Source: Crambe crambe
Taxonomy: Eukaryota; Porifera; Demospongiae; Poecilosclerida; Crambeidae
DNA length: 64,000 nucleotides
Assembly (NCBI GenBank): GCA_963924555.1
Contig: OZ004583.1
Location: 6,276,582-6,340,581, forward strand
Direction: 5' to 3'
Numbering within the stretch: the first letter of the stretch is position 1; each line of letters begins with the position of its first letter. Positions 20,393-51,515 of the stretch are shown here, piece by piece. A program made the translations under genes and the position numbers. The notes under the pieces were generated by a model that did not search any database, was not told the DNA's origin, and was given only the letters and a program-made list of their open reading frames with translations.

Positions 20393-20596
20393 GATCAGAT
20401 TTCTCTGTTGACAATGTGCAGAAATATACATCACATGTATTTCTACCAATGTATACGAACTACTACTACTACTCTTTGGAAGAATTCCTGACTGGTAAAG
20501 CTATCACTACATGGAGACAACTCATAAGCATAATGGGTATAACGGATCGATGCAAGTATGCTGACAGCATCAGAAACTTTGCAGAGCCAGTGACAG
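20393..20596 (+). CDS. Gene A exon 9: short hypervariable death-fold module
   Basis: A 68-codon exon, phase 1-1, between TCTTTTAG and GTAATTT. It starts SDFSVDNVQKY, carries a Tyr run (NYYYYSLEEFL), then ITTWRQLISIMGITDRCKYA and ends SIRNFAEPVT. It resembles the shorter death-fold half with the TWRxLI signature. Against gene B exon 9 (49913-50104) I count 19 replacement codons, one silent codon and a net loss of four codons in B, all central; the two ends are identical. Confidence 0.7.
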
Positions 20597-21231
20597 GTAA
20601 TTTAGGGGAAATCCCCTATTCCATCACACACATCCCTCTCCTAACTTTAGACTAATTGACTGACTGTGTGCTAGCTAATATCTTTATTAAGATTCTACCC
20701 ATGGCATACTCCTCAGAGTTTTTGTAATTGGCTCAGCCAGATTGATTCATTAGATGATTGTATTCTCAGATTCTCACTTAACCCCTCCCATTATAGTACA
20801 TATAGCTGGACTATTTTAAGAACTGTATTAAGTGTTGAGTGTAAACTGATGGAACTTGTTTCCATTTCATAGTGACTGACTCTGTCAACTATTACATCCC
20901 ATCAGCTAGCTGTATGGCTGCAATACAATTAGAACACACTTATTCTCAAACAGTGTATATGGATCACTTGTATTCAACTTTGTACCCTCTATTAAAACCC
21001 TTTCCATGCTTTGTTAGAGTTGTAAGATCTCAATAGCATGTGTACATGCCATAGCAACTAAATTGCAGTGTATGGTTCATATGGGATACAGTGGAATCCA
21101 AAATGACTCTATGGTTTCATGACACAAACTATCCCTTCCATAGACAATTCCCTTTAAGTGATTAAAGTAGCTATTGTGTCATAGGTCATTATTTCCATTC
21201 AGTTCTAGCTGTAATCAAGTTTCCCCTGCAG
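20597..21231. other. Gene A intron 9 (635 bases)
   Basis: No coding signal. It has the same length as the gene B intron 50105-50739 and differs from it at only five positions by my count, although it lies between two strongly diverged exons. Confidence 0.8.
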
Positions 21232-21516
21232 ACCCCACAATGACAGTTGAGAACCTGACGACTGTACTGATGAGTGCAGAGGAGTCACCATTGAGAATTA
21301 TATCCAGAGTGGGATCCATTTTATACAGATTATTCTCTAGTCTAATTGGGCGTATTGAGTCCTGTATACCCAGTGTGGAGCAGCAAGTGAAAGTAGCTGC
21401 CATGTGTTACATCAGTAGCCATCGAGAGCAACCTACTTGGAAGGAAATTGCTACAGCTGCACTCTATGGAGAAGAAGAAGATGTGGCCATTAAAGCTTGT
21501 GATTATTGTACTAGAG
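21232..21516 (+). CDS. Gene A exon 10: hypervariable death-fold module
   Basis: A 95-codon exon, phase 1-1, from CCCCTGCAG to GTGAGTTA. It encodes PTMTVENLTTVLMSAEESPL, a variable middle, then CIPSVEQQVKVAAMCYISSH and EQPTWKEIATAALYG, ending VAIKACDYCTR. It is a paralogue of exon 7. In gene B (50740-51042) the middle segment is largely replaced and a six-codon acidic/hydrophobic insertion occurs before DVAIKAC. I count 18 replacement codons against 3 silent. Confidence 0.7.
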
Positions 21517-21736
21517 GTGAGTTAGTTGTTTTAGTGATCCATTACAGCTATAGCCAGAATGATCAGTACAGGTGTGCACATGCTGTAGGGGAAATTTATT
21601 GACTCATGTATGATGTGTAGCTATGTGCACAATACTATTCTAATTCTCATTCTACAATGCATGGGATAGTCACTTAGTTTTTGAGTAATCATGTTGGAAT
21701 AATTATACCTGTACATCTTCATTTCATCATTGACAG

Positions 21737-21982
21737 ATTCCAACTTCAGCATTGAGAGAATAAACAAGGTGTTGGAGGAAGTGGAAGATTGGGAGAAAAT
21801 GACACGACATTTACATCTAATAGAAATAATCAAGTCTAGTGAGAGTACTACACCAAAGAAAGCCTTAGCTGAGATCATGGTGCGTCTTAACCCTGCTATT
21901 GATTGGGAGAGATTGGCCAGTGCACTCAGGCGTACAGGTTACTATGCACTTGCTGAGGATGTTACCACCAAGTATGTGAAAG
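21737..21982 (+). CDS. Gene A exon 11: death-fold module
   Basis: An 82-codon exon, phase 1-1, between ATTGACAG and GTGAGAC. It reads SNFSIERINKVLEEVEDWEK, KKALAEIMVRLNPAIDWERL and ends ALAEDVTTKYVK, similar to exon 8 (the EVEDWE start and the W..L..AL pattern). Orphan copies of this exon are at 4892-5149 (intact) and 33433-33689 (frameshifted). Gene B exon 11 (51264-51515) has two extra codons, and I count 16 replacement and 5 silent codons. Confidence 0.75.
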
Positions 21983-22799
21983 GTGAGACTTACACACACC
22001 AATAACTGCCTATTAGCATTGAAACTTAAAGGGGTAATGTTGCTGCTATTACAGTCATGCATGGTTTCATTACGTTTCACATACTGTGCATATTTATGTA
22101 CAGAAAGTTTTATGAATTTTGAATCTGCAAGTATGTGAATATTGTGTATGTGGTAACAAGTTAGCAAACATAGCTACCCCATAAGGGCCAGTCCAGCTTG
22201 GTGATTTGAGAGCTTAATTTTCATTCTCTTATTTTGTGCTTCTTATGTCAGGTTAAACCTAAAATCCAATATTTTCCTGGGGGTCTCTAAATCATCTTCC
22301 TATGCCACTATATAGAAAGTTGCTTCTTAGCTTTGCCACACTCTCATGCCAGTTAGAAGTCTACTGGCTTACTTCATTAGTAGTTACACACAGATTTCCC
22401 TTCCTTAATTTATCGCAGCAGTCTTTGAGGTGAGCATAAAGTACCGTAACTCTTGAACAAAGCATTTGTTTCTAAATCTACAAGTCAAAAATCAAGAAAG
22501 CATCATGCTGCCCACACAGCTGATAGAGTGTTGATTAAAGGACAAGCAAATAGACACACTAACTAATGTTTCAAAGCAGGTCAACACACTAATCAACTTC
22601 AACTTATTAGGAGAAAATTTTTGCATTTTTATTGTTTGGATACCAGGCTCAATGGTATGAATCTGAAAAGTTGGAACTTGTTATGAAGCAAGTACCGTAG
22701 GGCGGGTTAATTTCGTTAGGAAAAAATTCTGTCTATATCCGGAATCGTTATACTAAATTGAACGGATAAATCTTCGCACATGCGCATTGAAGACAAAAT

Positions 22800-22800
<1 letters not shown>

Positions 22801-22833
<33 letters not shown>
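22801..22833. repeat. Poly-C run of 33 bases
   Basis: An uninterrupted homopolymer of C within the intron. It is near the upper limit of what sequencing resolves, so its true length is uncertain. It could form G-quadruplex DNA on the other strand. Confidence 0.9.
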
Positions 22834-24741
22834 AGTTTCTGTTGAAGTGCAAAGGCAGGTGGACTAGCTATTTCAAGAGAGACACTTGAAATACAATACC
22901 CTTCTACGCACCTGTGCTGGGCATGGGGCTCGAGTGCTTTGCTGCAATGCCCCCTTAGCAACTGATGTGGTTGCTACTGTATGGCCGGAAATGTATACAA
23001 CGATTTTAATTTGATGCTTTGGTGGTTTATCACCAAAAATAAAACTGTCAAAAAGTCACATGGTTTAATTAAGTTCATGCATACGTACACATGCACATAT
23101 TGCGTGCCATTTATTGCACACTGCTACATGCAGCTGCCATACTGTATGTCTTTGCTGAAGTATATTCTACTGAAGAAGGAGAATCCAGTCCTGAATCCAG
23201 TCCTGCCTGTGTGCTTGCTGGAGAGAAAGTCATACTGATAGACCTTCCCTGGGGTAAATTAGAGCTGTAGCACCTTGAACCTGCAAAGCCATCACTGTAA
23301 AGAAAGCTTGGTGATTTGAGAGCTTAATTTTCATTCTCTTCATTTGGCACTTCTTATGTCTAAAATCAGGTTAAATCTAAAAGGTCCAAAATCCAACACT
23401 TTCCTAATATTAATCGTCTTCTATGTCACTATATAGACAGTAGCTTCTTAGCTTTGACACACTCATGCCAGTTAGAAGTCTTGATTTCCCTTCCTTACGA
23501 AATAATACCGTAATACCGTAACTCTTTAACTTTCTAAATCTACAAGTCAAAAATCAAGAAAGCATCATGCTACCCACACAGCTGATTCAATTTATTGGGA
23601 GAAAATGTTTGCATTTCTATTGCTATTTCTATTGCTTGGATACCAGGCTCAAGGGTATGAATCTGAACTTGTCATGAAGCAAGTTTACTGTTCTTATAAT
23701 TTCAATGTAGAACACGGTCTACATCTCCTTCAAAACATCCAAATGAGGGTGTATGATTTTGTATAAACTTAATATGTCATGTTACTTACCTACGATGTAG
23801 TACACCCCTTCTACCTAGATTGGGACCTGTGCTGGGCATGGGGCTCACCCCCACAATCAGTGCTTTGCTGCAATGCCCCCTTAGCAACTGATGTGGTTGC
23901 TATATTTGGTCATGCCTCACCCTGTCCTGTTTTATGCTGCTTAAGTCAGCTTGGGTGAGACATGTTGGGTGGTGAATACCCATGCTGTGCCCAGCACTTG
24001 GTCCTAGCAAGACCCAAGCCTTGTTAGGCTACACAGGAAGTGGGCGGGTGGGTGAATTTTTCAGCTCTGCTATCGTACGCTTGCCTTCTGCTTCTCAGTC
24101 TGACCACTGCTTGAGTATCACCCCTACTGCGCAACCATGTGCCTATGCAACCTTCCCAGTCACTTGCACGCTCATTCCACATGCCTATTAACCTGGGTTA
24201 ATAGTATACCATTAACCCTCATTGATGAAGTGACTCACTGTTCTAAAGGTACTACTTCAGAGAACATATTTGAAGCATGTAATTATATGAATTTCAGAAT
24301 GATATCAAGATCTTAATTTGATCATCTTGGTTTGAAAATTAGGCTTCATGTACATTTCGTATGTAGCTTGTAAACTTTAACAAGCTCTAACATCTTGCTT
24401 GAAATTGTACATTTAGTAACATTTGGCAGACTGGCCATTTCTGCCTGTGTCAGTGGAATATTATCCTCATCTTCAGAAACTAGCTACTGCTCCAGTCAAA
24501 ATTAAATTGAATGGTTAGGAAATATTTTCAAGCTGAAATATTTTGTAGTTGGCCTCTGGTCAGCTGATATTAATTCTCATATATGTATTATCAGTGCAAG
24601 TTAGAGCACATGAGCTAAGTGTGTATTTTAATATTCATCACATGGTGTTTTAGCAGCTGCTTCTTGAAGCAAAAAGAGCTTCCACACTGATTATTTTCCT
24701 CTATATTTTCCCAACCCCATGGGTGTTTATAATACATCTAT

Positions 24742-26518
24742 TCTTCTTCAGGGATCCAATGCTCCAGCAATTTCTGAGCAGATGAAACCATACTCATGAC
24801 AATTGGTTGCAGTTCCATACTTTCAATATCTTCTCCCTCTATTTGCTTCATTACTTCTTCTGAGTAGTTGCTGGAACTTACGCCTATGAAATTCTTTAGC
24901 TGGTTGGTTTGTGGACCGATAGGTCCATTAGCTGGAACAAACTTAGGAGCAATGTTGAGATAGAGAGATGTGACCTCCGAACTCCTCTAATTTGTTTTTG
25001 TTATAAAATTCCATGCCCAGCTGCCATTACAATCCTAGCTGATGCTCCCTACCTGACCTTCAAGTATAACTGAACTTTGGTGTCCAAACGTTCTCCAAGA
25101 AGAACTGGTTTGCTTTATAAGGGCCAGTCCAGCTGGGCTAAATTTTCATTTCTCTAAGAAATCATCTTGCACTACTTATGCTAAAATTCCCATCAGATTT
25201 CACCAAACTTTCCTGGGAGGTCTCTAAATCATCTTCCTATGCTACTGTATAGACAGTTGCTTCTTAGCTTTACCACACTTTCATGCCAGTTAGAAGTCTA
25301 CTGGCTTACTTCATTAGTTACACACAGATTTCCCTTCCTTAATTCATCACAGCAGTCTATTTCTAAATCTACAAGTCAAATATCAAGAAAGCATCATGCT
25401 ACCCACACAGCTGATAGAGTGTTGATTAAAGGACAAGCAAATAGACACACTAACTAATGTTTCAAAGCAGGTCAACACACTAATCAACTTCATATTAAAA
25501 TGTTTTATTGCTTGGATACCAGACTCAAAGGTATGAATCTGAAAAATTTTTGAAATGTTTTCAAGCAAGTATTGTTCTTATAGTTAGAACATGGTCTACA
25601 CACATAATATATATTATCTTCTTCAAAGCAGGTGTTGATTTTATAAAATACACTGTTCTGAAAGGTACAATTTCACGCAGATAAGCATAATAATTATTAT
25701 GAATTTAGAATCAATCGTATCAAGATCAAAACCAATTTGGTTCATTATCAAAGTTCATGTACATTTTGTATGTGGCTTTTAAACTTTAACAGGCTCTAAC
25801 AACTTGCAAGAAATTTTAAATCCAGTCACATTTGGCAGACTGGCCTGAGTCAGTGGAATACTGTCCTCATTTTCAGAAACTAGCTACTGCTCCAGTCAAA
25901 ATTGAATTGAAAATATTTTTTGCTCCATGTATTATGCCTATGGGAAACATTTTTTTCCTCCACATGTGTCCCCCATAGGTGTAATACAGCCAAAAAAATT
26001 GACCGATTTTAGCAGCTGTTTTCTAACAGCCAGTTTGAATGAACTATGATGAATCAAGAGCTAAACTCTTGCCATGTGATCAAAAGGATTGAATTTTGCT
26101 AGAGTAACTTTATCCCTCGAAGTCTAGCTAAACTGGAACCCGTGTTTGAAATATGTTTTTTCTTCTTCTTTTTTTTTTGGGGGGGGGGGGTCATTTGACC
26201 TCGCTTTTAGCAACTGCTGTATTGGTTCACTGAATGATTTATCCCTAACCTTCTTCAAATATAACTGAACTCTATGGTACAAATGTTTTCCAAGGAGAAG
26301 TGGTCTGCCTTGCTTTCTCCATGGCAAGACTTTCACATCACCATCCTCGGTACTTTTTTTCTTTTTGATCCTTCAATAAAGTCCTTCTTGATGGGGTGAA
26401 CAGTTGACTCGGTCACTTTCTGCTTGAGCTCCCTAAGCAGCTGCACCTCCACCATACTGGCTAGCATATTTCCAGGGCTAAACCTGTAGCTACCTCTACC
26501 TGTTAACAATCCAGTCAT
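24742..26518 (-). pseudogene. Pogo/Tigger-like transposase relics
   Basis: On the minus strand, 26336-26124 has GRPLLLGKHLYHRVQLYLKK, similar to the helix-turn-helix region (GRPxxLxxxLxxxVxxYL) before the catalytic domain of pogo-like transposases. A second such piece lies at about 25120-25030 (GERLDTKVQLYLKVR, then SARIVMAAGHGIL). Farther on, 24988-24742 contains YSEEVMKQIEGEDIESMELQ and ends QKLLEHWIPEEE at a stop, which looks like the C-terminal end of such proteins. The DDE catalytic core was not found. The family is an inference from remembered sequence patterns. Confidence 0.45.
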
Positions 26519-26696
26519 TCAAATTGGGGATCAAAAGTATCAAAGACAGTTCTATCCGGCAGAACTTCTTATTGGTTACGTCTGCTGTTGGTGATCTGGT
26601 TTACTAAAAATGGATTCCAGGAAAGGTTACTGGACCCCACTCGTATGGGGATTCCATTATGTGTCATGAAATCTGACTAGTAAAAGTTGGGCCGTG

Positions 26697-26870
26697 ACTG
26701 CATCATAATTATCAAACCAAGCCATATGGCACCAAAAAATCTAGCTAGATTATGTACTACTTTGACTGCAACATCGTATCAATCTAAGCCCATTTTGATA
26801 TGTGCTGCAGTCAAAGTGCATAGATTTTGGGGGCCATACGGCTTGGTTTGATATGATGCTGCAGTCATAG
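26697..26870. repeat. Foldback element
   Basis: Inverted arms of about 45 bases share ATCAAACCAAGCC, CCAAAA and GACTGCA (left) and their complements (right). A MITE-like palindrome. Confidence 0.65.
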
Positions 26871-27435
26871 TCCAGCTGAATTTGGGGCCACCCCTATTTA
26901 GCATTATTATTTAGAAGAAATTTTTTGCACTCGTAGTATATCAAAAGAGTATTCTTTGGGCTATCTAACAGTAGAAAATCCAAAGTCTGAAGGCTAACTG
27001 TTGCTTAGATTATGACTCTGTCCATATCAATCATGGCCACTTTAGAGTTGTGTAAAGACAGCTACTTTCCTTTCATTGCTAACCTCTGGTGTCTCTGGGT
27101 TCTCTGACCCAAGTGTAGAACTGATGGCTTGGGTTCATAGTGCTAGCTTGATAGCTTGTCACATTCAGTTTAGCAAGTGCCTCTATAAGACTGCTGATGA
27201 GCTTGCACATGCAGAAAGAAGATTTTTCCCAGTATCATCCACAGTCTTTCAGTACAAATTAATTGGAGCCTATCAGCTCTAAAAGCTATAGAAATACTTG
27301 CTCTCTTGCTTGCTGTCAAATGTTGCCTAGTAATGATTACAATATAAAATATACTAATTATATTTTACTAGTTACTACATCAGTATGTTATCTGTCCAGA
27401 AACATTTCATTAATGGTTTCTTACTATACTTGTAG

Positions 27436-29610
27436 GAGACCACGATTCTTGTCAGGATGAAGTAGATGAAAAAGAATTTCTCAAAGTGATTCAAGAAGCC
27501 ATCAACAAATCTGGAGCGATAAAACGAAAATTAGTACATTCTGTCTTTCTAGGCTCTCCTGGTTCTGGAAAGAGTTCGTTAATCACTCGCCTTGTTCGCA
27601 AAGAACTAAAGGACTTCTCTCCCTCCACTGGTGTCTGTGAACCTGTCGTTATAGTGGATGTTGGAATAGAAGATTCTTCTGCCAAACATGCATCAGTTAC
27701 AGTTCTACTACAGGCTGGAGAGTGGTCCGAAGCCGAGTTTGAGGTGTCTGTCGTGAGGCAAATGAACAAGGAAAGCATAACAATCACACCCAAAACAATG
27801 ACACCCAAAGCAGTGCCTCCTCCTGCACCATCCACTGCTAGTGAGAGTGCATCACCAGTGCAGACTAGCACCACTACGATTGCTCCACCTCAACCAATAG
27901 CATCTCCACTTGTATCACAGTCTGCAAATCCATGTCAAACCAGTGGCTCTGCCACTTCAGAAATGTTAACAAGTGATGGAGTAGATCTCTCAAGGAGACA
28001 ACTTTTGCAACCACCACCTCCACCATCAATCCAGAACATTTCATCTGTAATAAGAAAATATGGCTACAGCAGAGTTCAAAGGTATCTAAAGAACTCCTAT
28101 TCGATTTATTTGACTGATACTGGTGGTCAAGTGGAGTTCCAAGAGATGGTGCCTCTCCTGATATCTGGACCATCCATATTTTTCTTCCTATTTCGCATCG
28201 ATCAAGATCTCCGCAGCAAATTCAAAATATCGTATCGAAAAAAAGACAGAACAGTTATCAATTCGTATGTATCTTCCATCAGCACAGAGGATGCTCTGCT
28301 GCAGTGCCTTGCTAGTGTCGATGCCATGGATATAACTGGCCAAAGTGATGTCAAGATCCATCAACCTCTTATCTTCATCGTAGGCACACACAAGGATCTG
28401 CTTGGTTCCAATGCTGAAGAGAAAATCAGCGAGATAGACCGACAGTTGAACGATTTAATCAATAGGCATGGATACCAGCACTTGGTTCAGTATGCAGATC
28501 AGCATTCTAACAGGTTGATGTTCACTGTTGATAATTACAGCAAGAGTGAAGAGGACTTTGAACGCATCCGATCACGAGTCAGTGAAATAGTAATCGGTGG
28601 AGATGAGTTTGCCATTGACTATCCTATCAGCTACTTGCAGTTCAGCCTTGATTTTGAAAATTTGAAGAAGAGCATAGTTCCTCTTGACGAATGTGTGGCT
28701 CTAGCTGCTCAGTATGGCATCAGTAAAGACCAAGTAAAGCATCTGTTGCGATTTCTCCATACCCGAATTGGAAGGATCAAGTATTTTCCCGTCAAAGGCT
28801 TGCATGACATCGTCGTACGAGAACCTCAAGTGCTTTTCAATAAAGTTACAGATCTTATTGTTGAGACATTTTCTTCAAATCGGCTTTTTCGACAAGAACT
28901 CTCTGATTTTAAGCATAGGGGCATCATTTCTGCTTCAGTTTTCAAGAAAGTGATAACAGCAGAAGATGGCATCGATCCAAATTCATTCTTGCAATTACTG
29001 GTACATCTCCGCATCATATCACAAATCACCACATCAAGAGATAAAGAAGACCGGTATTTCATCCCATGTGTCCTTAACCATGTCCAGGCGTCACAAACTC
29101 CTGACGAAGTATCCAGTATCCCCACACTCTACATTGAGTTTGAATGTAATCACTGCCCTAAGGGGATATTCGGTGTTTTAATAAACACCTTGATCACTAC
29201 TAGTCTCAAAAGCTGGTTCAAATGGGAACTTCTTCCAAATTTCATATTCAGGGACCAAGTATCATTCCGTGTCGGTTGCTATGAAGATCGAGTGACTCTT
29301 AAATTCTTTGCATCCCATTTGCAAGTAATTCTACATCCATCTGGACGCAAATCAAAACACGCTCACATCAGTTATCTATGTAACGATATTTGTAAAGTTA
29401 TAGAGAAGAGCATCCATTCTTCAGTAGAGGATCTTCACTACGACAGTACCAAGACCCAACATTACTTCTGTTGCAAGTGTGAACTGTGTTCATCGAATCA
29501 TCGTGTCAAATATCAAGGCTGGGTGCAAGCAGACTACTTCATGTACTGCAGTAAAAAACACGAGATCTGTATTTTATCAGAAGACAACCTGGTCTGGTTT
29601 CGACCTAAAG
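27436..29610 (+). CDS. Gene A exon 12: ROC-COR (ROCO) GTPase domain
   Basis: A single 725-codon exon, phase 1-1, from CTTGTAG to GTGTGTA. The G1/P-loop GSPGSGKS is at exon residues 40-47. A Pro/Thr/Ser-rich insert (about 115-195) separates it from the G3 motif DTGGQ (about 227) and G4 THKD (about 317). The COR-like region follows (about 390-590), with YPISYLQFSLDFENLKKSIV, VVREPQVLFNKVTDLIVETF, HRGIISASVFKK and EDRYFIPCVLNHVQ, the usual order of ROCO proteins. The tail has Cys pairs (CNHC; CCKCELC) and ends LSEDNLVWFRPK. ROCO GTPases relay signals by a GTP cycle and dimerise through COR. There is no LRR or kinase here; death domains replace them. It is intact, and diverges from gene B with both silent and replacement changes. 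Confidence 0.85.
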
Positions 29611-29978: not shown

Positions 29979-30017
29979 TGGATGAAAAATTATGTGGAAG
30001 TAATGATTCATTAAAAG
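29979..30017 (+). CDS. Gene A exon 13: 13-codon linker
   Basis: A tiny phase 1-1 exon between CTTTTATAG and GTAACATT, encoding DEKLCGSNDSLK. Splice sites and frame fit, but gene B has no counterpart, so it may be optional or a prediction artefact. Confidence 0.45.
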
Positions 30018-30325: not shown

Positions 30326-30410
30326 GTAAGTGTCCCCGGTTGTATACCCCAGTTAGCTATATTGAAAAGCTGCTATCAAGATATTTTGTACTGCTCTACT
30401 CACCCTGCAG

Positions 30411-30665
30411 CTATGACTCACCACCATCAAGTGTCCATGTGCTTGAGAGACCTGACTGAAAATCAACTTCTGGATCTTGGTGGAGCTCTTGGATTGTACT
30501 GGCCAAATCTCAAGATGATGAAATACCTCTGTAAAGAATTAGTGGAAGCATGGTTAAATGGAGCTGACAATGTCCTTGCCACTAGTGGTCAGCCCACTTG
30601 GAGGAGTTTGATAAAAGCTCTAGACGAGATCGGTCAGAAAGGAACAGCTGACAAAATATCAAAAT
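30411..30665 (+). CDS. Gene A exon 15: C-terminal death domain
   Basis: An 85-codon exon, phase 1-1, between CACCCTGCAG and GTGAGTAT. It encodes VSMCLRDLTENQLLDLGGAL, YLCKELVEAWLNGADN, GQPTWRSLIKALDEIGQKGT and ends ADKISK. The LVEAWLxG...TWRSLIKALDEIG pattern is a clear death domain. It is nearly identical in gene B (57408-57662), unlike the variable modules ahead of the GTPase. Death domains bind other death domains to build signalling platforms; the partner is not known here. Confidence 0.85.
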
Positions 30666-32395: not shown

Positions 32396-33432
32396 ACTAC
32401 TACCAGTTATACTCACATACATACCTACTCAAAACAATACATAACTAGCTACGTAGATTGAAGGAGGTATCATTCACCCACAGAGATACTATGTTTGTAT
32501 AAAAGATAAAAGAAAGCATACTAGACAAAGTAATTTATTCTTCTTTGCACTGCCCCACCCCCCAACTGTTTACCTAGCTATCAAGCTAAAGATTATAATG
32601 TTACAAAAGATTATAATGTTACATCATGCAGGGAGGAGGCAAGAAAGAGATTCCATTTGGAAATGGAACATTGAACTCATCTGAATTCTTAGGCTATAAT
32701 TATAGCTTATCATAGCTGCTCATTTTTTCACAGCAGCCATTATGAATTACACTGGATAGTACCAGAGAAACAGTAACTTAGTTGCTCAAGGTCAATCTTT
32801 TGTTCTGTATATCCAGCCAACAATCCCTACATACTTAAGCCATAAGCTATGGGTATAGCATACATATTATGTTGGCTGGATATACAGAACAAAGACATAC
32901 CCCACTTCCTTCCTTATCCCTACCTGCTTAATTTTTTGGCTCGTTCCTACTTCTTTTTTTTTTTTGAAGTTTTTTCCCTCATGCTGAATAGATTAGTTGT
33001 TTCTCGGGGGCAAACATGATTCAATTTGAAAATAGCACATGGCACATTTTATGTAAAACCAGCTAGCTTCCTTTGCTTGGCCAAATGGTATAATAGTGGG
33101 TAAAGTTGTTGTTGATAGGACTATTTTGAAGTGTAACTGGAACGAAAACTGCTTCAGTGCTAGAAAATTAATGAGATTTTAAAGTCGTTGGTTTTAAAAG
33201 TTATTTCAACTAGAGAAGCCTGGTTTTTGGAGGTAAAGGGTCGGCTGCTAGATTGACAGTGCGTTGTTAGTGATCCATTACAATAGGCATGCATAGCAGT
33301 GCAGCTCATGTAGCTATGTGCAAAATACTATAATTCCCCCACTATTAATACAGTGCTCACTTTACTAAAACTAAACCTGTATGTACGAATAGATGAGAGG
33401 ATGAGAGTAATCTTCATATTCATCATTGACAG
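30902..33432. other. 3' flank of gene A and start of duplicated spacer
   Basis: No complete gene. A repeat piece at about 31075-31200 is shared with 41735-41880 (GGGAGGGCTAGGAGTGATAGG). Another ends at 31558 with GGCATGGAATGACCC, the terminus of the element family seen complete at 42266-43835. From about 31585 the sequence duplicates 2958 onward, including the coding-like fragment (31914-32298), the AAC repeat and the foldback at 32798-32893. Confidence 0.6.
32798..32893. repeat. Foldback element, TTCTGTATATCCAGCC core
   Basis: Same perfect arms as 4217-4339, with a loop shortened by about 27 bases. Confidence 0.8.
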
Positions 33433-33689
33433 ATTCTAACTTCAGCATTGAGAGAATAAGCAAGGTGTTAGAGGAAGTGGAAGATTGGGATCAAGTTACA
33501 CTATTTCTCTCTCTTCCTGAATCACTAATAGACAGAATCAAGTTGAGTGAGAACTGCACCTAAGCAGGCCCTGGCTGAGATCATGGTGTGCCTTAACCCT
33601 GCTCTTGATTGGGATGGATATGCCAGGGCACTCAGTGATGCAGGTTACCATGCACTTGCTGAGGATGTGACCACCAAGTATATGAAAGG
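33433..33689 (+). pseudogene. Dead death-fold exon, duplicate of 4892-5149
   Basis: Splice acceptor and donor remain, and the sequence matches the intact exon at 4892-5149, but two bases are lost (GTGAGAACTGC against GTGAGAGTACTGC), which shifts the frame. Other changes include GTGCGC to GTGTGC (Arg to Cys). The exon can no longer encode the module. Confidence 0.75.
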
Positions 33690-34245: not shown

Positions 34246-34600
34246 CCAGCTTCCCAGATGTCATAATAGTCCTGTTATTATAATTCCTTTCTTGTTACAG
34301 CATGATGTGCGACCTCCCCAGAGCTGATCAACCACCTGCAGCTAAAGCTTAGAATTTAAATTACTTTATTAGTAGTTATCACTAAACTCCTGCCATTGCA
34401 TGCATGCCCATAGCTAATTGATTACTGGTCATAATGCCCTGATGGCTGGTAGTTTCACTGTTTTAAAAACCTCACTGTGGTCAAAACTTCAAAGCATATT
34501 ATGGATGCCATAGTCTAATTCCTGTTGATATAAACGATACAAGAAATGGGCCGAGGAAACCTGTTGAATGAGTAGCTTATTGACCTTTCTCTAGTATGGA

Positions 34601-36472
34601 GCATGTGGAGTAAGTAGTTATACACATTGAATACAGATTCTGGATTCCTGCCTAGCTACTGAACATCCACTACACCTTCATAGGATCTGCCTCAATCTCA
34701 GGAGCAAGGGGAGAAGAGCATGTGGAGTAAGTAGTTATACACATTGAATACAGACTCTGGATTCCTGCCTAGCTACTGAACATCCACTACACCTTCATAG
34801 GATCTGCCTCACTCTCAGGAGCAAGGGGAGAAGAGCATGTGGAGTAAGTAGTTATACACATTGAATACAGACTCTGGATTCCTGCCTAGCTACTGAACAT
34901 CCACTACACCTTCATAGGATCTGCCTCACTCTCAGGAGCAAGGGGAGAAGAGCATGTGGAGTAAGTAGTTATACACATTGAATACAGACTCTGGATTCCT
35001 GCCTAGCTACTGAACATCCACTACACCTTCATAGGATCTGCCTCACTCTCAGGAGCAAGGGGAGAAGAGCATGTGGAGTAAGTAGTTATACACATTGAAT
35101 ACAGACTCTGGATTCCTGCCTAGCTACTGAACATCCACTACACCTTCATAGGATCTGCCTCACTCTCAGGAGCAAGGGGAGAAGAGCATGTGGAGTAAGT
35201 AGTTATACACATTGAATACAGACTCTGGATTCCTGCCTAGCTACTGAACATCCACTACACCTTCATAGGATCTGCCTCACTCTCAGGAGCAAGGGGAGAA
35301 GAGCATGTGGAGTAAGTAGTTATACACATTGAATACAGACTCTGGATTCCTGCCTAGCTACTGAACATCCACTACACCTTCATAGGATCTGCCTCACTCT
35401 CAGGAGCAAGGGGAGAAGAGCATGTGGAGTAAGTAGTTATACACATTGAATACAGACTCTGGATTCCTGCCTAGCTACTGAACATCCACTACACCTTCAT
35501 AGGATCTGCCTCACTCTCAGGAGCAAGGGGAGAAGAGCATGTGGAGTAAGTAGTTATACACATTGAATACAGACTCTGGATTCCTGCCTAGCTACTGAAC
35601 ATCCACTACACCTTCATAGGATCTGCCTCACTCTCAGGAGCAAGGGGAGAAGAGCATGTGGAGTAAGTAGTTATACACATTGAATACAGACTCTGGATTC
35701 CTGCCTAGCTACTGAACATCCACTACACCTTCATAGGATCTGCCTCACTCTCAGGAGCAAGGGGAGAAGAGCATGTGGAGTAAGTAGTTATACACATTGA
35801 ATACAGACTCTGGATTCCTGCCTAGCTACTGAACATCCACTACACCTTCATAGGATCTGCCTCACTCTCAGGAGCAAGGGGAGAAGAGCATGTGGAGTAA
35901 GTAGTTATACACATTGAATACAGACTCTGGATTCCTGCCTAGCTACTGAACATCCACTACACCTTCATAGGATCTGCCTCACTCTCAGGAGCAAGGGGAG
36001 AAGAGCATGTGGAGTAAGTAGTTATACACATTGAATACAGACTCTGGATTCCTGCCTAGCTACTGAACATCCACTACACCTTCATAGGATCTGCCTCACT
36101 CTCAGGAGCAAGGGGAGAAGAGCATGTGGAGTAAGTAGTTATACACATTGAATACAGACTCTGGATTCCTGCCTAGCTACTGAACATCCACTACACCTTC
36201 ATAGGATCTGCCTCACTCTCAGGAGCAAGGGGAGAAGAGCATGTGGAGTAAGTAGTTATACACATTGAATACAGACTCTGGATTCCTGCCTAGCTACTGA
36301 ACATCCACTACACCTTCATAGGATCTGCCTCACTCTCAGGAGCAAGGGGAGAAGAGCATGTGGAGTAAGTAGTTATACACATTGAATACAGACTCTGGAT
36401 TCCTGCCTAGCTACTGAACATCCACTACACCTTCATAGGATCTGCCTCACTCTCAGGAGCAAGGGGAGAAGA
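34601..36472. repeat. Minisatellite, 117 bp unit, 16 copies
   Basis: Copies begin GCATGTGGAGTAAGTAG at 34601 and every 117 bases after that, the last starting at 36356. Apart from small differences in the first copy, they look identical. The corresponding place before gene A (from 5542) has only one diverged copy. Recent, rapid expansion is implied. Confidence 0.95.
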
Positions 36473-37484: not shown

Positions 37485-37785
37485 ATGTCTTGCTTCTTTC
37501 GTTTTGCTTTGATTGGTCTCTGTGTGTCTCTGCTGCGACAGTGGTGTGATGATGAATGGAAGGGGGAGTGGCAGGTCAACAACAAGACAAGCTATGATGT
37601 AGCTGTCAAACACCTCTTGCACGGCTACTTTAGGAAGACAAGACTATGGAGGAGGGTAGTGGGAGAAAGATCAGGATCCAGAGGAAAAGGCAGACCAACT
37701 TGGTTCCTGATGGGTATCCTGTTACTCTCTGGGGACGTGGAAGTGAACCCTGGACCCAAGACTAAGACTAGAGCAGCTGATAAAG
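37485..37785 (+). CDS. Gene B exon 1: leader with 2A-like peptide
   Basis: ATG at 37485, donor GTATTA after GATAAAG (phase 1). It encodes MSCFFRFALIGLCVSLLRQW, a basic diverged middle, and FLMGILLLSGDVEVNPGP with the full 2A consensus; skipping would fall between Gly90 and Pro91. The 60 or so bases covering 2A and the next ten codons are almost identical to gene A, whereas the preceding leader has many replacements and indels. This suggests the 2A function is under constraint. Confidence 0.85.
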
Positions 37786-38010
37786 GTATTAGCTGTTTGT
37801 GGAATGTTGTTTGTGACTACAATACTCCATAGGCTATGATGGATAGTCAGAGAGATCACATAGCCTCATCCCTTTTATTAGTTAACTATACAGTGAATCT
37901 ACTGACAATGCTATAAGTATCAATAATCACTTCCTTTCTTCCTGTGTGGTGGACTAGAAGGGCTTCATATCTACCGTTAGTTACCAATTTGTTATCATTT
38001 CCTGATTTAG

Positions 38011-43835: not shown

Positions 43836-43840
43836 ATATA

Positions 43841-44910: not shown

Positions 44911-45046
44911 GTAAGTGGTTCATAAAATTATCACTTAATTTTTTTGAAGTATCATTACCTTTTACCAATTATGTTCATGACTTCCCTAAAAGTTATAAAG
45001 CAAGAGTCACCTGAAATGCTCATAATTGGAAGAGCTGAGAGTCTCC

Positions 45047-45645
45047 CTATATGGTGTACTATCCCTATATGGTGTGCAGTGATGTATTATCCCTATATGG
45101 TGTGTAGTGATGTACCATCCCTATATGGTGTGCAGTGATGTACTATCCCTATATGGTGTGCAGTGATGTACTATCCCTATATGGTGTGCAGTGATGTACT
45201 ATCCCTATATGGTGTGCAGTGATGTACTGTCCCTATATGGTGTGCAGTGATGTACTATCCCTATATGGTGTGTAGTGATGGTGTGCAGTGATGTACTATC
45301 CCTATATGGTGTGCAGTGATGTACTATCCCTATATGGTGTGCAGTGATGTACTGTCCCTATATGGTGTGCAGTGATGTACTATCCCTATATGGTGTGTAA
45401 TGATGGTGTGCAGTGATGTACTATCCCTATATGGTGTGCAGTGATGTACTATCCCTATATGGTGTGCAGTGATGTACTATCCCTATATGGTGTGTAGTGA
45501 TGTACTATCCCTATATGGTGTGCAGTGATGTACTATCCCTATATGGTGTGCAGTGATGTACTATCCCTATATGGTGTGTAGTGATGTACTATCCCTATAT
45601 GGTGTGTAGTGATGTACTATCCCTATATGGCGTGTAGTGATCTTG
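45047..45645. repeat. Minisatellite, 28 bp unit, about 20 copies
   Basis: Unit CCCTATATGGTGTGCAGTGATGTACTAT, with G/A variation in GTGCAGTG/GTGTAGTG and some shortened units (GTGTAGTGATGGTGTGCAG). It lies in gene B intron 5. Gene A has only the unexpanded precursor near 17805-17870, which is also kept in B at 46141-46215. Confidence 0.95.
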
Positions 45646-46317
45646 GTTTCTTTCAAGAGGGTTTCCCCCCTCAGCTGCCCCCTTGTAGAATCACACAACT
45701 AGTCTTCCTTTTATTCCATACATCCATACATCTTATTCTAAATCATTATCTGTTAGTTCTATCACTAACTATTTTCATTAATAAGTTTAATCAAGTTTTT
45801 CTCTCTCAGTAAGTGAGTTTTCTCTATCTTCATCTGTGGTCTGTCTTTCTATTCCAACAACAATAGAAGACAGATATTAGCTAAAGTGTTCAGGTTGTTC
45901 AGCATCTCATTGTCATGCAGTTATGATCCCATATCTTCCTTAGGGGTGTGTATCAAGAGAACTATGTAAATGTGTTGCACATACTTTCAGTGTACACACA
46001 TCAAAGTTAAACTTGCTAATATTACATACACAAATCACATGTAACCAAGGTCTAAAATAATAGTGACATCAAGACTTCCTGTCCCCCCCTATAACCTCAC
46101 AAACCTCCCTATAATTCCTCCCCCCACATAAAATCCTGAAGTACTATTCCTATATGGTGTGGAGTGAAGTACAGTGTGTAGTAATGTACTATCCCTATGT
46201 TTAGTGAGCAGTGATGTACTAACCATGGTATGCACTGCAATGGTGAACTGTCTGGTATTATGTTCTGACTGGCACATGTAGTGATCATGTGTTCTACTAT
46301 TTTGTGTTCCCATACAG

Positions 46318-46569
46318 TCCCACAGTTGACTCTACCTAACATCACCAAGTACATCCCACAAATACTGGAGATAGAGGATGTCCGAGTACATTTTTTGAAA
46401 CAATGGTTATCAGTGGAAGATGCTCCTGCATCTAGTGTTGAATTGGTTCTCAGTGCCTGGCTAGCAGGAAAGGGAGCACCTTCTTCCTGGAGGAGACTTA
46501 TTTGGGCTCTCGATAGAATAGAAGGGAGTGTTGCTGATAACATACGAAAGTTTGCTGAGCCACCACAAG
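46318..46569 (+). CDS. Gene B exon 6: death-fold module 1
   Basis: Eighty-four codons, phase 1-1, CATACAG to GTATGATC. It keeps PQLTLPNITKYIP and VELVLSAWLAGKGAPSSWRR but has DVRVHFLKQWLSVED where A has AASLKRRLAVED, and a shorter loop before VADNIRKFAEPP. Core helices are conserved, surface segments are not. Confidence 0.7.
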
Positions 46570-47671
46570 GTATGATCATCATGCATGACTGTATTGTTAG
46601 CTGATATTATTATAGCCCAGAGTTCAGGTCTCTCTGTGTGTGACCTGATGTGTGTGACCTGACTTTAGCTTGAAGTCCTGAGAAAGTTGCATAAGTTTGA
46701 ACATTGTTTGAAGCATGTCAGGGTGATGATCATCTGGAAGAGTCCATTGCCAAGATAACTTTATTTTGCCATCATGACCCCTTATATTAATGCCCACCTA
46801 TAGATACTACATAGTAATTTGTAATGGAGGAGCTCAATTTTCATTACAGTGGAACCTCCGAGTAAAGGACACTTTGGGATCAGCCACTTTGTTTTTGCAG
46901 AGAGGTTATCCTTTTCTCGGAGGTTAAAAATGTACTAATGCTATTGGAAAGGGGCCCAAAAGAACATCCTTTGTTGGGAGGTTGTCCTTTTCTTGGAGGG
47001 TCCTTTATTGGAGGTTCCACTGTACAACTTTTGCAGATTGACCATCTAGTATTTTAACAAATCTTGGCACCTACCCCTTATGCAGCAGGCTATATTCATA
47101 CATATGTGCATATTCATTCATGGGTTCTGATTTTCTTGCCGCTCTGACTATAGTCAATTTATGCTCACCATACTTAAAACTTGGCCTTTATGTATGCCTA
47201 CATTTGTATCAAATATCAATCCAGCTAATTGCTGCACAGTACTCTAAATAATGTGCACCCAGAATGAAAATGGCAAGGCTGAGCAATTAACAGTCACTTA
47301 AAACTTAATCAACTGCAGATTCAGTACTGACAATTAGTATCAGTACCCAGTCAGGTGGCACTGGTAGGAAGATTTGAGTATTTGTTTTAATTTCCATTTT
47401 CATATTTTAAGATCCACAAAAAAGTTCTACTCCTTGAAAATAAAATGCTACACAATATGAACTTAATGAGCTCCATACTTTGCCTCCATGCATTATCTTA
47501 TGAGAAATGTTTGCATGAGACATACAAGGATGACTGCATGAGCACATGCAGACTTCACTAAGTCTTGATGAGTGTGATTCATTCATACATGCAGCCATCT
47601 GAATAGCACCTAACCTGCATGGTTGTACTTTATGATCCATGTCATGCAACATGCTGTGTTTACTCCTGTAG
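46570..47671. other. Gene B intron 6
   Basis: Near copy of 18234-19255 with the shared MITE at 46847-47022. No coding signal. Confidence 0.6.
46847..47022. repeat. MITE with CAGTGGAACCTCC ends, TA-flanked
   Basis: Orthologous to 18511-18686: same site, same length, inverted ends CAGTGGAACCTCC and GGAGGTTCCACTG, TA on both sides. Confidence 0.85.
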
Positions 47672-47950
47672 AATCCACCTTGAGTGTAGAGAATGTAGCA
47701 GCAGTACTCATGCAGATAGCAGAGGGAGATGTGTCATCAGTGCTGAAGGAACAGAAGGATTCTTTTGGTGGCTGTCCTCCGTCTGTTCACTCCCGCATCT
47801 CATCCCTAAGTGGAGAGGAGAAGATACGAGCTGCTGCCTCTCTTTACATAACCAGTCATGGTTGTCCCTCTTGGAAGTTATTATCCCTACTGCTCTATGA
47901 AGTTGGAGAGATGAAGGCTGCTGAGAGTGCCATGACTAACTTCTCAAAAG
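47672..47950 (+). CDS. Gene B exon 7: death-fold module 2
   Basis: Ninety-three codons, phase 1-1, CCTGTAG to GTTAGGG. It reads STLSVENVAAVLMQIAEGDV and IRAAASLYITSHGCPSWKLL. Compared with gene A, nearly all differences are replacements (K to E, V to K, I to F, W to P, F to S, H to R, among others). Confidence 0.7.
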
Positions 47951-48167
47951 GTTAGGGGACAGTAAGCTACCATGTTGCAGGAATTTTTCGAGGGGTAAAT
48001 TTTTGCAGATTTGGTGGTATTGAAAAATAATTAGAGGTTCACACTTCTATTGCAAAGCCATGAAAATTTAGTGCTATATGATACATATAAATAAAGTGAT
48101 GAGTACGACATACGTAGTCATCACTGTTCCTGGGCATACACTTGAGACTACTTTTTCCTCTTAGCAG

Positions 48168-48419
48168 ATCCAACATTTACTGCTGAGTTGTTAAGTGAGA
48201 TATTAAAGGAGGTGGAGGACTGGGAGACCATATCAAAGTACATGGGGATCGCTGACCATACTATATCACAGATCAAGTCTGCTCACGATCAGAAAGGAGC
48301 CCTCATTCATCACCTAGTCCATGTGTGCCCCTATGTGACCTGGGGGAATGTGGTGACAGCACTGTCTCACTGTGGGGAGGAGATTGCAGCTGAACAGGCA
48401 TCAAAGTACTTTCCTAATG
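48168..48419 (+). CDS. Gene B exon 8: conserved death domain
   Basis: Eighty-four codons, phase 1-1, TTAGCAG to GTGAGAG. Nearly identical to gene A exon 8 (V to I twice, L to F once), with ISKYMGIADHTISQIKSAHD and WGNVVTALSHCGEEIAAEQA. Its constancy contrasts with exons 6, 7, 9, 10 and 11. Confidence 0.8.
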
Positions 48420-48644
48420 GTGAGAGATACATTTCTTGTTGATACTTTGTAAGCTAACAGTGTAAGAAATTCTAGTAGTATTGATATGATCCATATAGGA
48501 TCCAGGAATGTAATGATCTTGATGTGAGTGGCTGGCTATAGTTTAGAAACTCTTGAGTTGTCTTTTGACTTACCAAGTGAAATCTAATCAGGACTTAACT
48601 TTTTGGTATGACCATGTGGCCACTAGAATCTCATTCGCCTATAT

Positions 48645-49718
48645 CAGAGAGTGCGGTAGCACTCTCTATGTAGGGATGACTCGGACGGCCGCGCGCGCCG
48701 CCTATAGACTAATACAAAAGTGAAATTCTAGTTCCCCCACTTAGACCTAATAATAGCTACTGTGAATGATTATCCAGCCTACTAGAGCCTACTACTATGT
48801 GCAGACCAAGTTTCAGGACCAGGGAGCTTACCGTTTCAGAAATACGGCAAGCAGGTAAATCGCTATATTCTTCTTCTTCTCTATTATTATTATTATTATT
48901 CTTCTTCTTATTATTCTTCTTAGACAACCATATCTCTCGAACCACTCAAGCTACAGCTATGATTTCTGGACAAATCCACTCCAAATTCTACGAACTACGA
49001 TCTTTTCTACTCGTTGATCCTCGAAAGAGTAGATGAAAAAGGAGACACTATGGAGCACAGCACTCGACTAATTCAATTAGGAAGCCATCTTTTCTATAAT
49101 ACGCATGCGCATGTATTTGAATATCCAATTATTCGAAATCATAATATTACTCAGCTGTCTCTAGCTAGCTAGCTAGCCAGCTCTAGCTGATGATAGACTA
49201 CTGTATCGATTCGGGGATTTAGATTCACCACGGTAGACTCTATTTCAGCATCTTCGACCTCCAAGTATGGCTCAACAACACAACACCTTGACTCGATAAA
49301 TGATTGGGCTGGTATGCTATTGGAGAACTTCTTTCATCTGTCCCTGCATACACATAGAAGAATGAACTCTAATCATAGCTAAAACCATAAAAGAGAGGAA
49401 AAAAGACCAGGAACAAGTAAGGGAAAAAGCATTTCGTGAAATGAAAAAAAGATGTAGGGATGACCACTGCTCAAAAAAGTAAGGAAACAAGAAGGATGGA
49501 AATGGGATCAATCTTTGTTCTGTATATCCAGCCAACAATCCCTACATATACGTCAGGTAACTTCAGATTATAGTGTAGTAATGTGTGTATATGTAGGGAT
49601 TGTTGGCTGGATATACAGAACAAAGATTGATCCCATTTCCATCCTTCTTGTTTCCTTACTTTTTTGAGCAGTGGTCATCCCTACATCTTTTTTTCATTTC
49701 ACGAAATGCTTTTTCCCT
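48645..49718. mobile_element. Insertion beginning with CAGAGAGTGC hairpin and ending in a long palindrome
   Basis: Comparison with gene A (CGCCTATATAACC, uninterrupted) shows precise insertion with TAT at both edges. The left edge is the hairpin CAGAGAGTGCGGTAGCACTCT; the right edge is the outer end of a 299-base palindrome. The two parts may be separate elements, one nested beside the other. No transposase was found, so it would be non-autonomous. Confidence 0.65.
49420..49718. repeat. Near-perfect 299 bp palindrome
   Basis: Arms of about 131 bases (49420-49550 and 49588-49718), beginning AGGGAAAAAGCATTTCGTG and ending in the complement, are virtually exact complements around a 37-base centre. 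The inner arms contain the TTCTGTATATCCAGCC core shared by the other foldbacks. Confidence 0.9.
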
Positions 49719-49912
49719 TATAACCTAAGGAATGGGATTCCTATAAAATTTCTCATATGCATAATAATAGTAGCATTAATAGCATTCATACTTATCTAAT
49801 ATCAGAACTGACACTTAGAATTATAGTTCCTGGAGTTTTAAAAAGTTAGGCCCTGCATACGTACATTGCATGCTTAGAATCCCGACTAAGTAATATTATT
49901 ATTCTCTTTTAG

Positions 49913-50104
49913 GATCAGATTTCTCTGTTGAGAATGTGCAGAAATATGTACTTCTGGAGGATGAGGGAAACTACTACTACTCTTTGGACGAATTCCTGAC
50001 TGCTAGAGCTATCACTACATGGAGAGAACTCATAAGCAGAATGGATACAATGAATCAACACAAATATGCTGACAGCATCAGAAACTTTGCAGAGCCAGTG
50101 ACAG
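49913..50104 (+). CDS. Gene B exon 9: short hypervariable death-fold module
   Basis: Sixty-four codons, phase 1-1, CTTTTAG to GTAATTT. SDFSVENVQKYVLLEDEGNY replaces the longer segment of A, then SLDEFLTARAITTWRELISR and the unchanged SIRNFAEPVT. Nineteen replacement codons and one silent codon relative to A by my count. Confidence 0.7.
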
Positions 50105-50739
50105 GTAATTTAGGGGAAATCCCCTATTCCATTACACACATACCTCTCCTAACTTTAGACTAATTGACTGACTGTGTGCTAGCTAATATCTTTATTAAGA
50201 TTCTACCCATGGCATACTCCTCAGAGTTTTTGTAATTGGCTCAGTCAGATTGATTCATTAGATGATTGTATTCTCAGATTCTCACTTAACCCCTCCCATT
50301 ATAGTACATATAGCTGGACTATTTTAAGAACTGTATTAAGTGTTGAGTGTAAACTGATGGAACTTGTTTCCATTTCATAGTGACTGACTCTGTCAACTAT
50401 TACATCCCATCAGCTAGCTGTATGGCTGCAATACAATTAGAACACACTTATTCTCAAACAGTGTATATGGATCACTTGAATTCAACTTTGTACCCTCTAT
50501 TAAAACCCTTTCCATGCTTTGTTAGAGTTGTAAGATCTCAATAGCATGTGTACATGCCATAGCAACTCAATTGCAGTGTATGGTTCATATGGGATACAGT
50601 GGAATCCAAAATGACTCTATGGTTTCATGACACAAACTATCCCTTCCATAGACAATTCCCTTTAAGTGATTAAAGTAGCTATTGTGTCATAGGTCATTAT
50701 TTCCATTCAGTTCTAGCTGTAATCAAGTTTCCCCTGCAG
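50105..50739. other. Gene B intron 9 (635 bases)
   Basis: Same length as gene A intron 9 with five substitutions. No coding signal. Confidence 0.8.
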
Positions 50740-51042
50740 ACCCCACAATGACAGTTGAGAACCTGACGACTGTACTGATGAGTGCAAAGGAGTCACCATT
50801 GAACATTATATACGATGTGAAAGATTCCGATTGGGGCAGACTATTTTATGATCTAATGAAGCGTATTGAGTCCTGTATACCCAGTGAGGAGCAGCAAGTG
50901 AAAGCAGCTACCATGTGTTACATCAGTAGCCATCAAGAGCAACCTACTTGGAAGGAGATTGCTACATCTGCACTCTATGGAGATGTAGTTATAGTTGAAG
51001 AAGTCGATGTGGCCATTAAAGCTTGTGATTATTGTACTAGAG
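50740..51042 (+). CDS. Gene B exon 10: hypervariable death-fold module
   Basis: One hundred and one codons, phase 1-1, CCCTGCAG to GTGAGTTA. TVENLTTVLMSAKESPLNII is followed by YDVKDSDWGRLFYDLMKRIE, which is largely different from A, then the conserved CIPSEEQQVKAATMCYISSH and PTWKEIATSALYG, and the extra segment DVVIVEEV before DVAIKACDYCTR. Confidence 0.7.
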
Positions 51043-51263
51043 GTGAGTTAGTTGTTTTTAGTGATCCATTACAGCTATAGCCAGAATGATCAGTACAGGT
51101 GTGCACATGCTGTAGGGGAAATTTATTGACTCATGTATGATGTGTAGCTATGTGCACAATACTATTCTAATTCTCATTCTACAATGCATGGGATAGTCAC
51201 TTAGTTTTTGAGTAATCATGTTGGAATAATTATACCTGTACATCTTCATTTCATCATTGACAG

Positions 51264-51515
51264 ATTCCAACTTCAGCATTGAGAGAATAAACAAGGTGTT
51301 GGAGGAAGTGGACGATTGGGAGGAAGTGGCACGATATCTATCTATATCGCTAATGGAAAGAATCAAGTCCAGTGAGAGTACTACACCAAAGCAAGCCTTA
51401 GCTGAGATCATGGTGCGTCTTAACCCTGCTATTGATTGGGTGAGATTGGCCAGTGCACTCAGGTATGCAGATTATGATGCACTTGCTGAGGATGTGACCA
51501 CCAAGTATGTACAAG
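51264..51515 (+). CDS. Gene B exon 11: death-fold module
   Basis: Eighty-four codons, phase 1-1, TTGACAG to GTGAGAC. SNFSIERINKVLEEVDDWEE, then ARYLSISLMERIKSSES and NPAIDWVRLASALRYADYDA, ending TTKYVQ. Two codons longer than gene A, with 16 replacement and 5 silent codon differences. Confidence 0.75.

Follow-up and report, generated by a model that had tools for sequence, protein, structure and literature searches.

Hypervariable death-fold exons between near-identical introns in a ROCO-type gene array of the sponge Crambe crambe

We have analysed a stretch of 64,000 nucleotides from Crambe crambe (hereafter the window; contig OZ004583.1, C5:6276582-6340581), inside which two tandem relatives, genes A and B, carry a predicted Roc-COR GTPase exon and a series of exons of death-fold or putative death-fold type. 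In these genes exons 6, 7, 9, 10 and 11 are strongly diversified in their cores, while the introns between them are nearly identical. A first-pass annotation of the window had described this for exons 9-11 of A and B; the observation is real, and it is wider and stronger than first stated. The pattern recurs across 18 copies, beyond the A/B pair, with a positive-selection signal at particular codons of the five variable exons and with exons that are mosaic across copies. The array is probably homogenised by an exchange that also moves exon patches, with diversifying selection acting on the cores of the death-fold exons. The exons and introns concerned, in window coordinates, are as follows.

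17973-18233, + strand: gene A exon 6, variable
19256-19531, + strand: gene A exon 7, variable, chiefly within a single short segment; similar to exon 10
19750-20001, + strand: gene A exon 8, death-like, no more divergent than the introns; serves as internal control
20393-20596, + strand: gene A exon 9, variable
20597-21231, + strand: gene A intron 9, most likely homogenised
21232-21516, + strand: gene A exon 10, variable; death fold of six helices predicted
21517-21736, + strand: gene A intron 10, most likely homogenised
21737-21982, + strand: gene A exon 11, variable; matches Pfam Death weakly
46318-46569, + strand: gene B exon 6, variable
47672-47950, + strand: gene B exon 7
48168-48419, + strand: gene B exon 8
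49913-50104, + strand: gene B exon 9, DNA identical to exon 9 of copy L004
50105-50739, + strand: gene B intron 9
50740-51042, + strand: gene B exon 10
51043-51263, + strand: gene B intron 10
51264-51515, + strand: gene B exon 11, DNA identical to exon 11 of copy L009

Exons 9-11 of both genes are each bounded by AG and GT, in phase 1-1. Between A and B, intron 9 shows 5 mismatches in 635 positions, and intron 10 shows zero mismatches and one inserted base (220/221), just as the first-pass annotation had it. Our recount of replacement to silent codons gives 17:2, 18:3 and 15:5 for exons 9, 10 and 11, against the 19:1, 18:3 and 16:5 counted earlier; that is, the figure for exon 10 stands and the other two move slightly. 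The in-frame indels are also there (4, 6 and 2 gap codons, respectively). The identical exon ends hold for exon 9 (6 and 13 codons) and exon 10 (16 and 12 codons), but not for both ends of exon 11 (16 and 0), where the last codon differs. In addition, exons 6 (17:3) and 7 (9:2) are variable, and exon 8 (3:1) varies little.

We have searched the genome (143 Mb, 119 contigs) for relatives. At DNA level, the exon 9-11 block has 18 copies, plus two more diverged ones, confined to contig C5 between 4.57 and 6.36 Mb and lying on both strands. Protein searches find exon 10 at 20 places, exon 9 at 20 and exon 6 at 21, every one on C5. All 18 copies keep exons 10 and 11 in frame and bounded by AG and GT. 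Exon 9 is open in 16 of them, the others being L010, which is frameshifted, and L015, whose exon end was not located by the anchor; the exon 9 anchors for L012 and L013 carried several mismatches. Overall, 52 of the 54 exon units, as located, are open and in frame. When the matches are paired by hand, a Roc-COR match lies at most ~14 kb downstream on the same strand in 16 of the 18 copies; L005 and L010 have none nearby among the matches listed (60 of 500 candidates scored). By the same kind of pairing, 12 of 19 full-length exon-6 sites have a homologue of the 2A-like leader described below on their own strand, 4-13 kb upstream; one of these homologues is split into two partial matches.

Divergence was calculated for the eleven closest copies (the close set). 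Exon 9 rows of L010 and L015 were left out (16 of 18 copies kept), exon 6 rows of L002, L010 and L015 likewise (15 of 18 kept), and L017 and L018 enter neither the codon tests nor the matching to public protein clusters (P0169 could be a member of their branch). For the proportions of nonsynonymous (pN) and synonymous (pS) differences, codon columns adjoining gaps were removed. Introns 6, 7, 8, 9 and 10 diverge by 2.2, 2.4, 2.2, 1.2 and 0.7%, respectively (0.0122 and 0.0072 for the last two). In the core codons of exons 9, 10 and 11, pN reaches 0.126, 0.107 and 0.105 and pS 0.045, 0.068 and 0.044, and the ratio of nonsynonymous to synonymous change (omega) is 1.6-2.8 in the cores. Taking all gap-filtered codons, pS is 0.127, 0.038, 0.027, 0.054 and 0.061 in exons 6, 7, 9, 10 and 11, and 0.010 in exon 8. 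Silent change is thus raised in exons 6, 10 and 11 (intervals 0.072-0.183, 0.019-0.101 and 0.015-0.117). For exons 7 and 9 this is uncertain, and exon 8 shows no such rise. Actually, exon 8 stays below its flanking introns (0.022-0.024), which means that high silent divergence is not general to the exons of the block. At the exon ends omega is 0.32 for exon 10 and 0.09 for exon 11, and silent changes are too few to judge for exon 9.

The contrast between exons and introns had been taken as the reverse of normal constraint. This is not simply so: the silent divergence of exons 6, 10 and 11 is several-fold the intron level, and the introns are most likely low because they have been homogenised, since silent divergence between the Roc-COR exons of A and B is higher still. 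There, pS is 0.08-0.42 over about the first two thirds (one gap-rich window is zero), 0.39-0.78 in the last part and 1.05 in the final 11-codon window. As at least this part of the gene pair is old, the near-identical introns were most likely homogenised later. Their near-identity most likely reflects recent homogenisation, and they make a poor neutral yardstick. In 18 of 19 windows of the Roc-COR exon pN is below pS, the exception being gap-rich and without silent change, so this exon is under purifying selection. Its silent divergence climbs toward the 3' end (28475-29610 against 55469-56700), which suggests a mosaic exon.

As for the introns themselves, divergence in introns 9 and 10 is slightly higher in the 50 bp next to the exons (0.018) than deeper (0.005-0.014). 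Functional constraint on the introns seems unlikely, given that intron 9 ranges in length from 406 to 1,912 bases in the copies where it is bounded, and that divergence in intron 10 rises from 0.7% within the close set to 13% against the L017/L018 branch; for exon 11 the two values are 6.7% and 14.2%. Chimeric assembly is also judged unlikely, as the pattern is found in 18 copies with reading frames kept and 14 of 51 public exon-10 clusters match exactly, though these matches, which concern the aligned part, may derive partly from the same assembly and are not a fully independent check. Part of intron 6 (18501-18694) matches a dispersed repeat on several other contigs.

Diversifying selection, which the first-pass annotation had suggested, is supported by codon site models. 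We used our own implementation with FastTree trees, scaled branches and a short optimisation, and columns with more than 30% gaps were removed. The model with a positively selected class (M2a) is preferred to M1a in all five variable exons, with twice the log-likelihood difference (2dlnL) at 33.6, 130.8, 92.8, 131.5 and 83.3 for exons 6, 7, 9, 10 and 11, and the selected class holds 11-30% of codons at omega 3.7-20. For exon 8 the value is 8.0, from a single site. With separate trees for the two halves of each exon, nine of the ten halves keep the preference (34.3/10.0 for exon 6, 92.3/1.6 for exon 7, 49.9/50.8 for exon 9, 107.2/14.1 for exon 10 and 37.9/41.9 for exon 11). In recombination-free null simulations, run for exons 10 and 9 only (24 each), the maxima were 5.5 and 9.4.

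The other suggestion, exchange with paralogues, is borne out by whole exons that are identical between otherwise different genes and by some common patches. Pairwise distances do not correlate between any two of exons 9, 10 and 11, either in the 16 copies (r -0.10, 0.10 and 0.04) or in the close eleven (r -0.01, 0.00 and 0.23). On the joined exons the pairwise homoplasy index (PHI) test gives p 0.001, and inside exons 9, 10 and 11 it gives p 0.003, 0.052 and 0.059 with all copies and 0.073, 0.001 and 0.069 with the close eleven. Exon 9 of B and L004, and exon 11 of B and L009, have 0 differences, yet in each of these pairs the remaining two of exons 9-11 differ by 5-10%. Similarly, between L003 and L012 exon 10 and exon 11 each have 2 differing bases, and exon 9 differs by 12.5%.

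A young duplicate pair, L007 and L008, which lie ~168 kb apart, shows such change at the level of patches. These two copies show 36 mismatches over 714 aligned bases in exons 6, 7 and 9 (25, 7 and 4 mismatches and 9, 3 and 3 gap columns, respectively, almost all of them tightly clustered) but none over 807 in exons 8, 10 and 11, and outside the exons 14 mismatches over 6,099 aligned bases, plus 90 gap columns. For L007/L008, B/L004 and L003/L012 we compared 14 patches, that is 28 sides, with the other copies read; the tally was made by hand with 10 nt of flank at each end, and difference clusters above 160 nt were skipped. Four sides have an exact donor, and six more have one within 2 mismatches. 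The exact cases are L008 exon 7, equal to L006 (31/31), L004 exon 10, equal to L011 (36/36), and two patches of B exon 11, equal to L009 (90/90 and 67/67), which are part of the already identical exon 11. Among the near donors, the L007 exon 6 patch shares 38 consecutive nt with B, L004 and L005.

Further variants exist in public protein sets. We compared the exon-10 open reading frame (ORF) and exon 6 with predicted proteins in a database clustered at 90%. Exon 10 yields 51 clusters, 14 of which are 100%, two 99% and 35 at most 92% identical to the array copies. In 45 of the 51, the exon is followed by an identical stretch of 12 residues read from the beginning of intron 10; two are cut short and four differ, one of these being gene A itself. 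Exon 6 also yields 51 clusters, 12 exact and 39 at no more than 93.8%, at least four of the latter being fragments; three copies were left out of this comparison, so up to three unmatched clusters could be those copies. These clusters indicate further variants and not their frequency, and the alternate haplotype of the same animal may be among them. Donors for the patches could possibly sit in other haplotypes.

The remaining parts of genes A and B in the window are listed here.

6121-6453, + strand: gene A, likely N-terminal exon, with a hydrophobic leader ending GDVEVNPGP (from the ORF and homologues; the common transcript is presumed)
27436-29610, + strand: gene A Roc-COR GTPase exon, silent change exceeding replacement change
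30357-30665, + strand: gene A C-terminal exon, death-like by resemblance only; no Pfam Death match
37485-37829, + strand: gene B, likely N-terminal 2A-like leader exon (from the ORF and homologues)
54471-56708, + strand: gene B Roc-COR ORF
57354-57662, + strand: gene B C-terminal death-like exon, assigned from its homology to gene A

We have further examined what the exons encode. A structure model of exon 10 has six helices forming a six-helix bundle (predicted local distance difference test, pLDDT, 73.9), and the 13 highest rows of a second-look alignment are solved death domains. The exon-10 profile finds no match among the sequences of solved structures. Pfam Death (PF00531) gives matches below the curated cut-off to exon 8 of A (E 0.0019) and to exon 11 of A (E 0.032) and of B (E 0.00049), and none to A exons 6, 7, 9 and 10, B exon 10 or the C-terminal exon. 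Sequence comparison shows similarity between exons 7 and 10 and between exons 8 and 11. The model of exon 6 is of low confidence (pLDDT 55, four helices), and exons 6 and 9 are putative death folds from their place in the layout. COR-A is above its cut-off in both genes (A 37.3, B 40.1, against 35.3), and Roc falls below (A 22.4, B 19.3, against 27). Among the exons scanned, A exons 6-11, its Roc-COR and its C-terminal exon show no leucine-rich repeat (LRR) match, and those of A and B show no NACHT. Exon-11-like death exons also stand at 4891-5148 and 33432-33687, each downstream of a Roc-COR exon and 63-71% identical to A exon 11; they are possibly a further C-terminal death exon.

When the selected codons of exon 10 are placed by hand on the model, they fall in helix 2 (22, 25 and 26), in the turn and one face of helix 3 (31-33, 36, 37, 40 and 43), before helix 5 (65), in helix 5 (72 and 75) and after it (80 and 81), with zero in helices 1, 4 and 6 and two more in insertions absent from A. 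In other death domains, such faces are assembly interfaces.

The leader ORFs of A and B both contain GDVEVNPGP, which fits the 2A-like motif D(V/I)ExNPGP and is predicted to cause ribosome skipping. Similar leaders precede death and NACHT ORFs at C5 9.0-9.2 Mb, in putative common transcripts. Such leaders beside death and NACHT genes here, and on sea-urchin NLRs (PMC4981915), are the main, indirect pointer to a possible immune role. The four loci at C5 9.0 Mb lack near-identical introns in their distant pairs, and one pair, L022/L024, is nearly identical throughout; both loci scanned among the four contain NACHT (E 3e-15 and 3e-19).

A second, large ROCO cluster occurs on contig C3, with 22 Roc-COR matches among those listed. 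In the three stretches of it that were compared as a possible replicate (L019-L021), the variable exons are not recognisable; two carry a C-terminal death-like exon (E 1.7e-18 and 9.7e-20), and the third has a weak exon-8 match. Repeats spaced ~204 bp occur in each of the three. Within the window, a tandem array of ~16 nearly perfect 117-bp units lies between the genes (34599-36472), a repeat array with 28-bp spacing lies upstream of gene B exon 6 (45052-45641), and unrelated ORFs at 61507-62549 encode a CXXC zinc finger and an OTU protease domain.

Based on the above analyses, we consider the following mechanism probable. In ~18 ROCO-type genes, diversifying selection would act on the death-fold exons 6, 7, 9, 10 and 11, which would serve as recognition modules. 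Exchange between the genes, by conversion or unequal crossing-over, would hold exon 8, introns 6-10 and most of the exon ends close to uniform, and the same exchange, presumably conversion, would carry whole exons and short patches (~20-110 nt) between genes and so make new combinations. Selection would favour copies with differing cores, which would thereby escape homogenisation and gather replacement changes and in-frame indels, carrying some linked silent change. The proteins may act as intracellular immune or self/non-self sensors, whose variable death folds would choose partners or targets and whose Roc-COR GTPase would drive signalling. From the exon-10 model one may also think, tentatively and with rather low expectation, that the variable surfaces are the death-fold assembly interfaces themselves, i.e., private lock-and-key strings that would assemble only with matching partners. 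If true, these strings would be an intracellular identity code written by exon-patch exchange, one that separates self from non-self or keeps parallel death-signalling lines apart.

On the other hand, several observations weigh against this mechanism of exchange plus diversifying selection. Exon 9 distances track those of intron 9 (r 0.56, p 0.004) and, in the close set, exon 11 tracks intron 10 (r 0.55, p 0.003), so exchange is not purely exon by exon; the PHI tests inside single exons are mostly borderline (p 0.001-0.073 in six tests). The silent divergence of exon 9 (0.027, interval 0.002-0.074) is not clearly above that of the introns, and its fixed four-fold sites are without any. Whole-exon omega is 0.60, 1.48, 3.10, 1.27 and 1.07 for exons 6, 7, 9, 10 and 11, with an interval above 1 for exon 9 only (1.05-31); the selection signal is carried by particular codons. 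Exon 8 (pN 0.013, omega 1.29, interval 0.37-5.13) is uniform like the introns, and constraint on it does not emerge. In addition, site models ignore recombination, which can inflate their signal, the second half of exon 7 gives only 1.6, and that of exon 6 (10.0) is near the exon 9 null maximum. Finally, 18 of the 28 patch sides have no copy read within 2 mismatches, which means that new mutation, or donors outside the sampled copies, is also needed.

The last point would suit a targeted mutator, that is, enzyme-driven hypermutation or error-prone patch repair of exon cores whose products are filtered by selection. The tight clustering of the L007/L008 changes agrees with it, as does the ratio of transitions to transversions (variable exons 174:163; introns 6, 8, 9 and 10 116:52); but selection for replacements can itself raise transversions, many further variants could serve as donors, and four patch sides match another gene exactly, with whole exons common to different genes. 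We regard such a mutator as unlikely. Recent whole-gene duplication followed by only positive selection on point mutations, with no exchange, predicts that exon silent divergence should equal intron divergence. Exon 9, whose silent interval includes the intron level and whose four-fold sites agree, and the high omega of the site models would fit. The silent values of exons 6, 10 and 11 (0.127, 0.054 and 0.061, against 0.007-0.024 in introns), the identical exons in different genes, the clustered L007/L008 patches and the high A-B Roc-COR silent divergence do not, and we hold this history to be very unlikely.

Exon-limited conversion alone, which would bring in neutral patches from diverged paralogues with no diversifying selection, accounts for the exons and patches in common between copies and for the raised silent divergence of exons 6, 10 and 11. 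However, variation ends inside the exons though the introns are more similar, exon 8 of the same block is not diversified, and the core omega, the positive site models and the 52 of 54 open units argue for selection, so that conversion alone is still less probable. Nor do the copies look like pseudogenes under relaxed constraint. Exon 9 of L010 is frameshifted, L017 and L018 look degenerate in exons 9 and 10 as anchored, and some Roc-COR matches contain stops; against this, frames and splice sites are kept in nearly all 18 copies, omega is low at the ends of exons 10 (0.32) and 11 (0.09), and pN is below pS in 18 of 19 A-B Roc-COR windows. We find decay scarcely credible.

Death folds are known as conserved signalling adaptors. 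In the ~18 genes of this array, each with several of them, they look instead like hypervariable modules of recognition. The array offers a natural experiment on the sources of diversity in an animal that has no antibodies: recent exchange is visible in the near-identical introns, exon 8 serves as a control within the same block, and the young pair L007/L008 records the replacement of exon patches. Its members would become candidate recognition genes if linked to graft outcome or infection. For polymorphism specific to individuals, a hallmark of allorecognition, the only indirect sign is the 35 exon-10 clusters unlike the array copies compared. In the open-access literature, we found no title or abstract start on hypervariable death-fold exons or comparable ROCO death genes.

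Similar arrangements are known elsewhere. In major histocompatibility complex (MHC) class I genes, exons 2 and 3 are diverse between more uniform introns, which is attributed to selection and exchange; these are vertebrate cell-surface proteins, unlike those of the C. crambe array. In Accelerated Segment Switch in Exons to alter Targeting (ASSET) of snake venom genes, exon segments are likewise replaced while introns stay similar, but the proteins are secreted, and its authors find all known mechanisms, recombination included, unsatisfactory (PMC2711939); in the sponge array some patches match another gene exactly. Fungal het-d/het-e share module exchange among family members and diversifying selection at interaction residues, though with WD repeats and in a fungus (PMC1805685). 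The zebrafish NLR-B30.2 genes are also clustered, with one part homogenised by conversion, and positive selection plus short conversion tracts have been proposed to diversify one exon; the diversified part there is B30.2, and the gene is a NACHT NLR (PMC4852459). Sea-urchin NLRs carry N-terminal 2A-like signals in 85 of 241 (~35%) and so resemble our genes in having such an element with death-domain immune genes; those are NACHT-LRR proteins, whereas here the leader lies upstream of death/Roc-COR genes, and on the same contig it also stands beside NACHT genes (PMC4981915). Brown-algal LRR-ROCO genes, proposed as immune receptors, show shuffled LRR exons and positively selected sites, and share with the array the Roc-COR family and the tandem exons of a single phase with one module each. 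There a 23-residue LRR varies and here a death-fold exon, and the sponge array has near-identical introns across ~18 genes with the variation in exon cores (PMC11378527).

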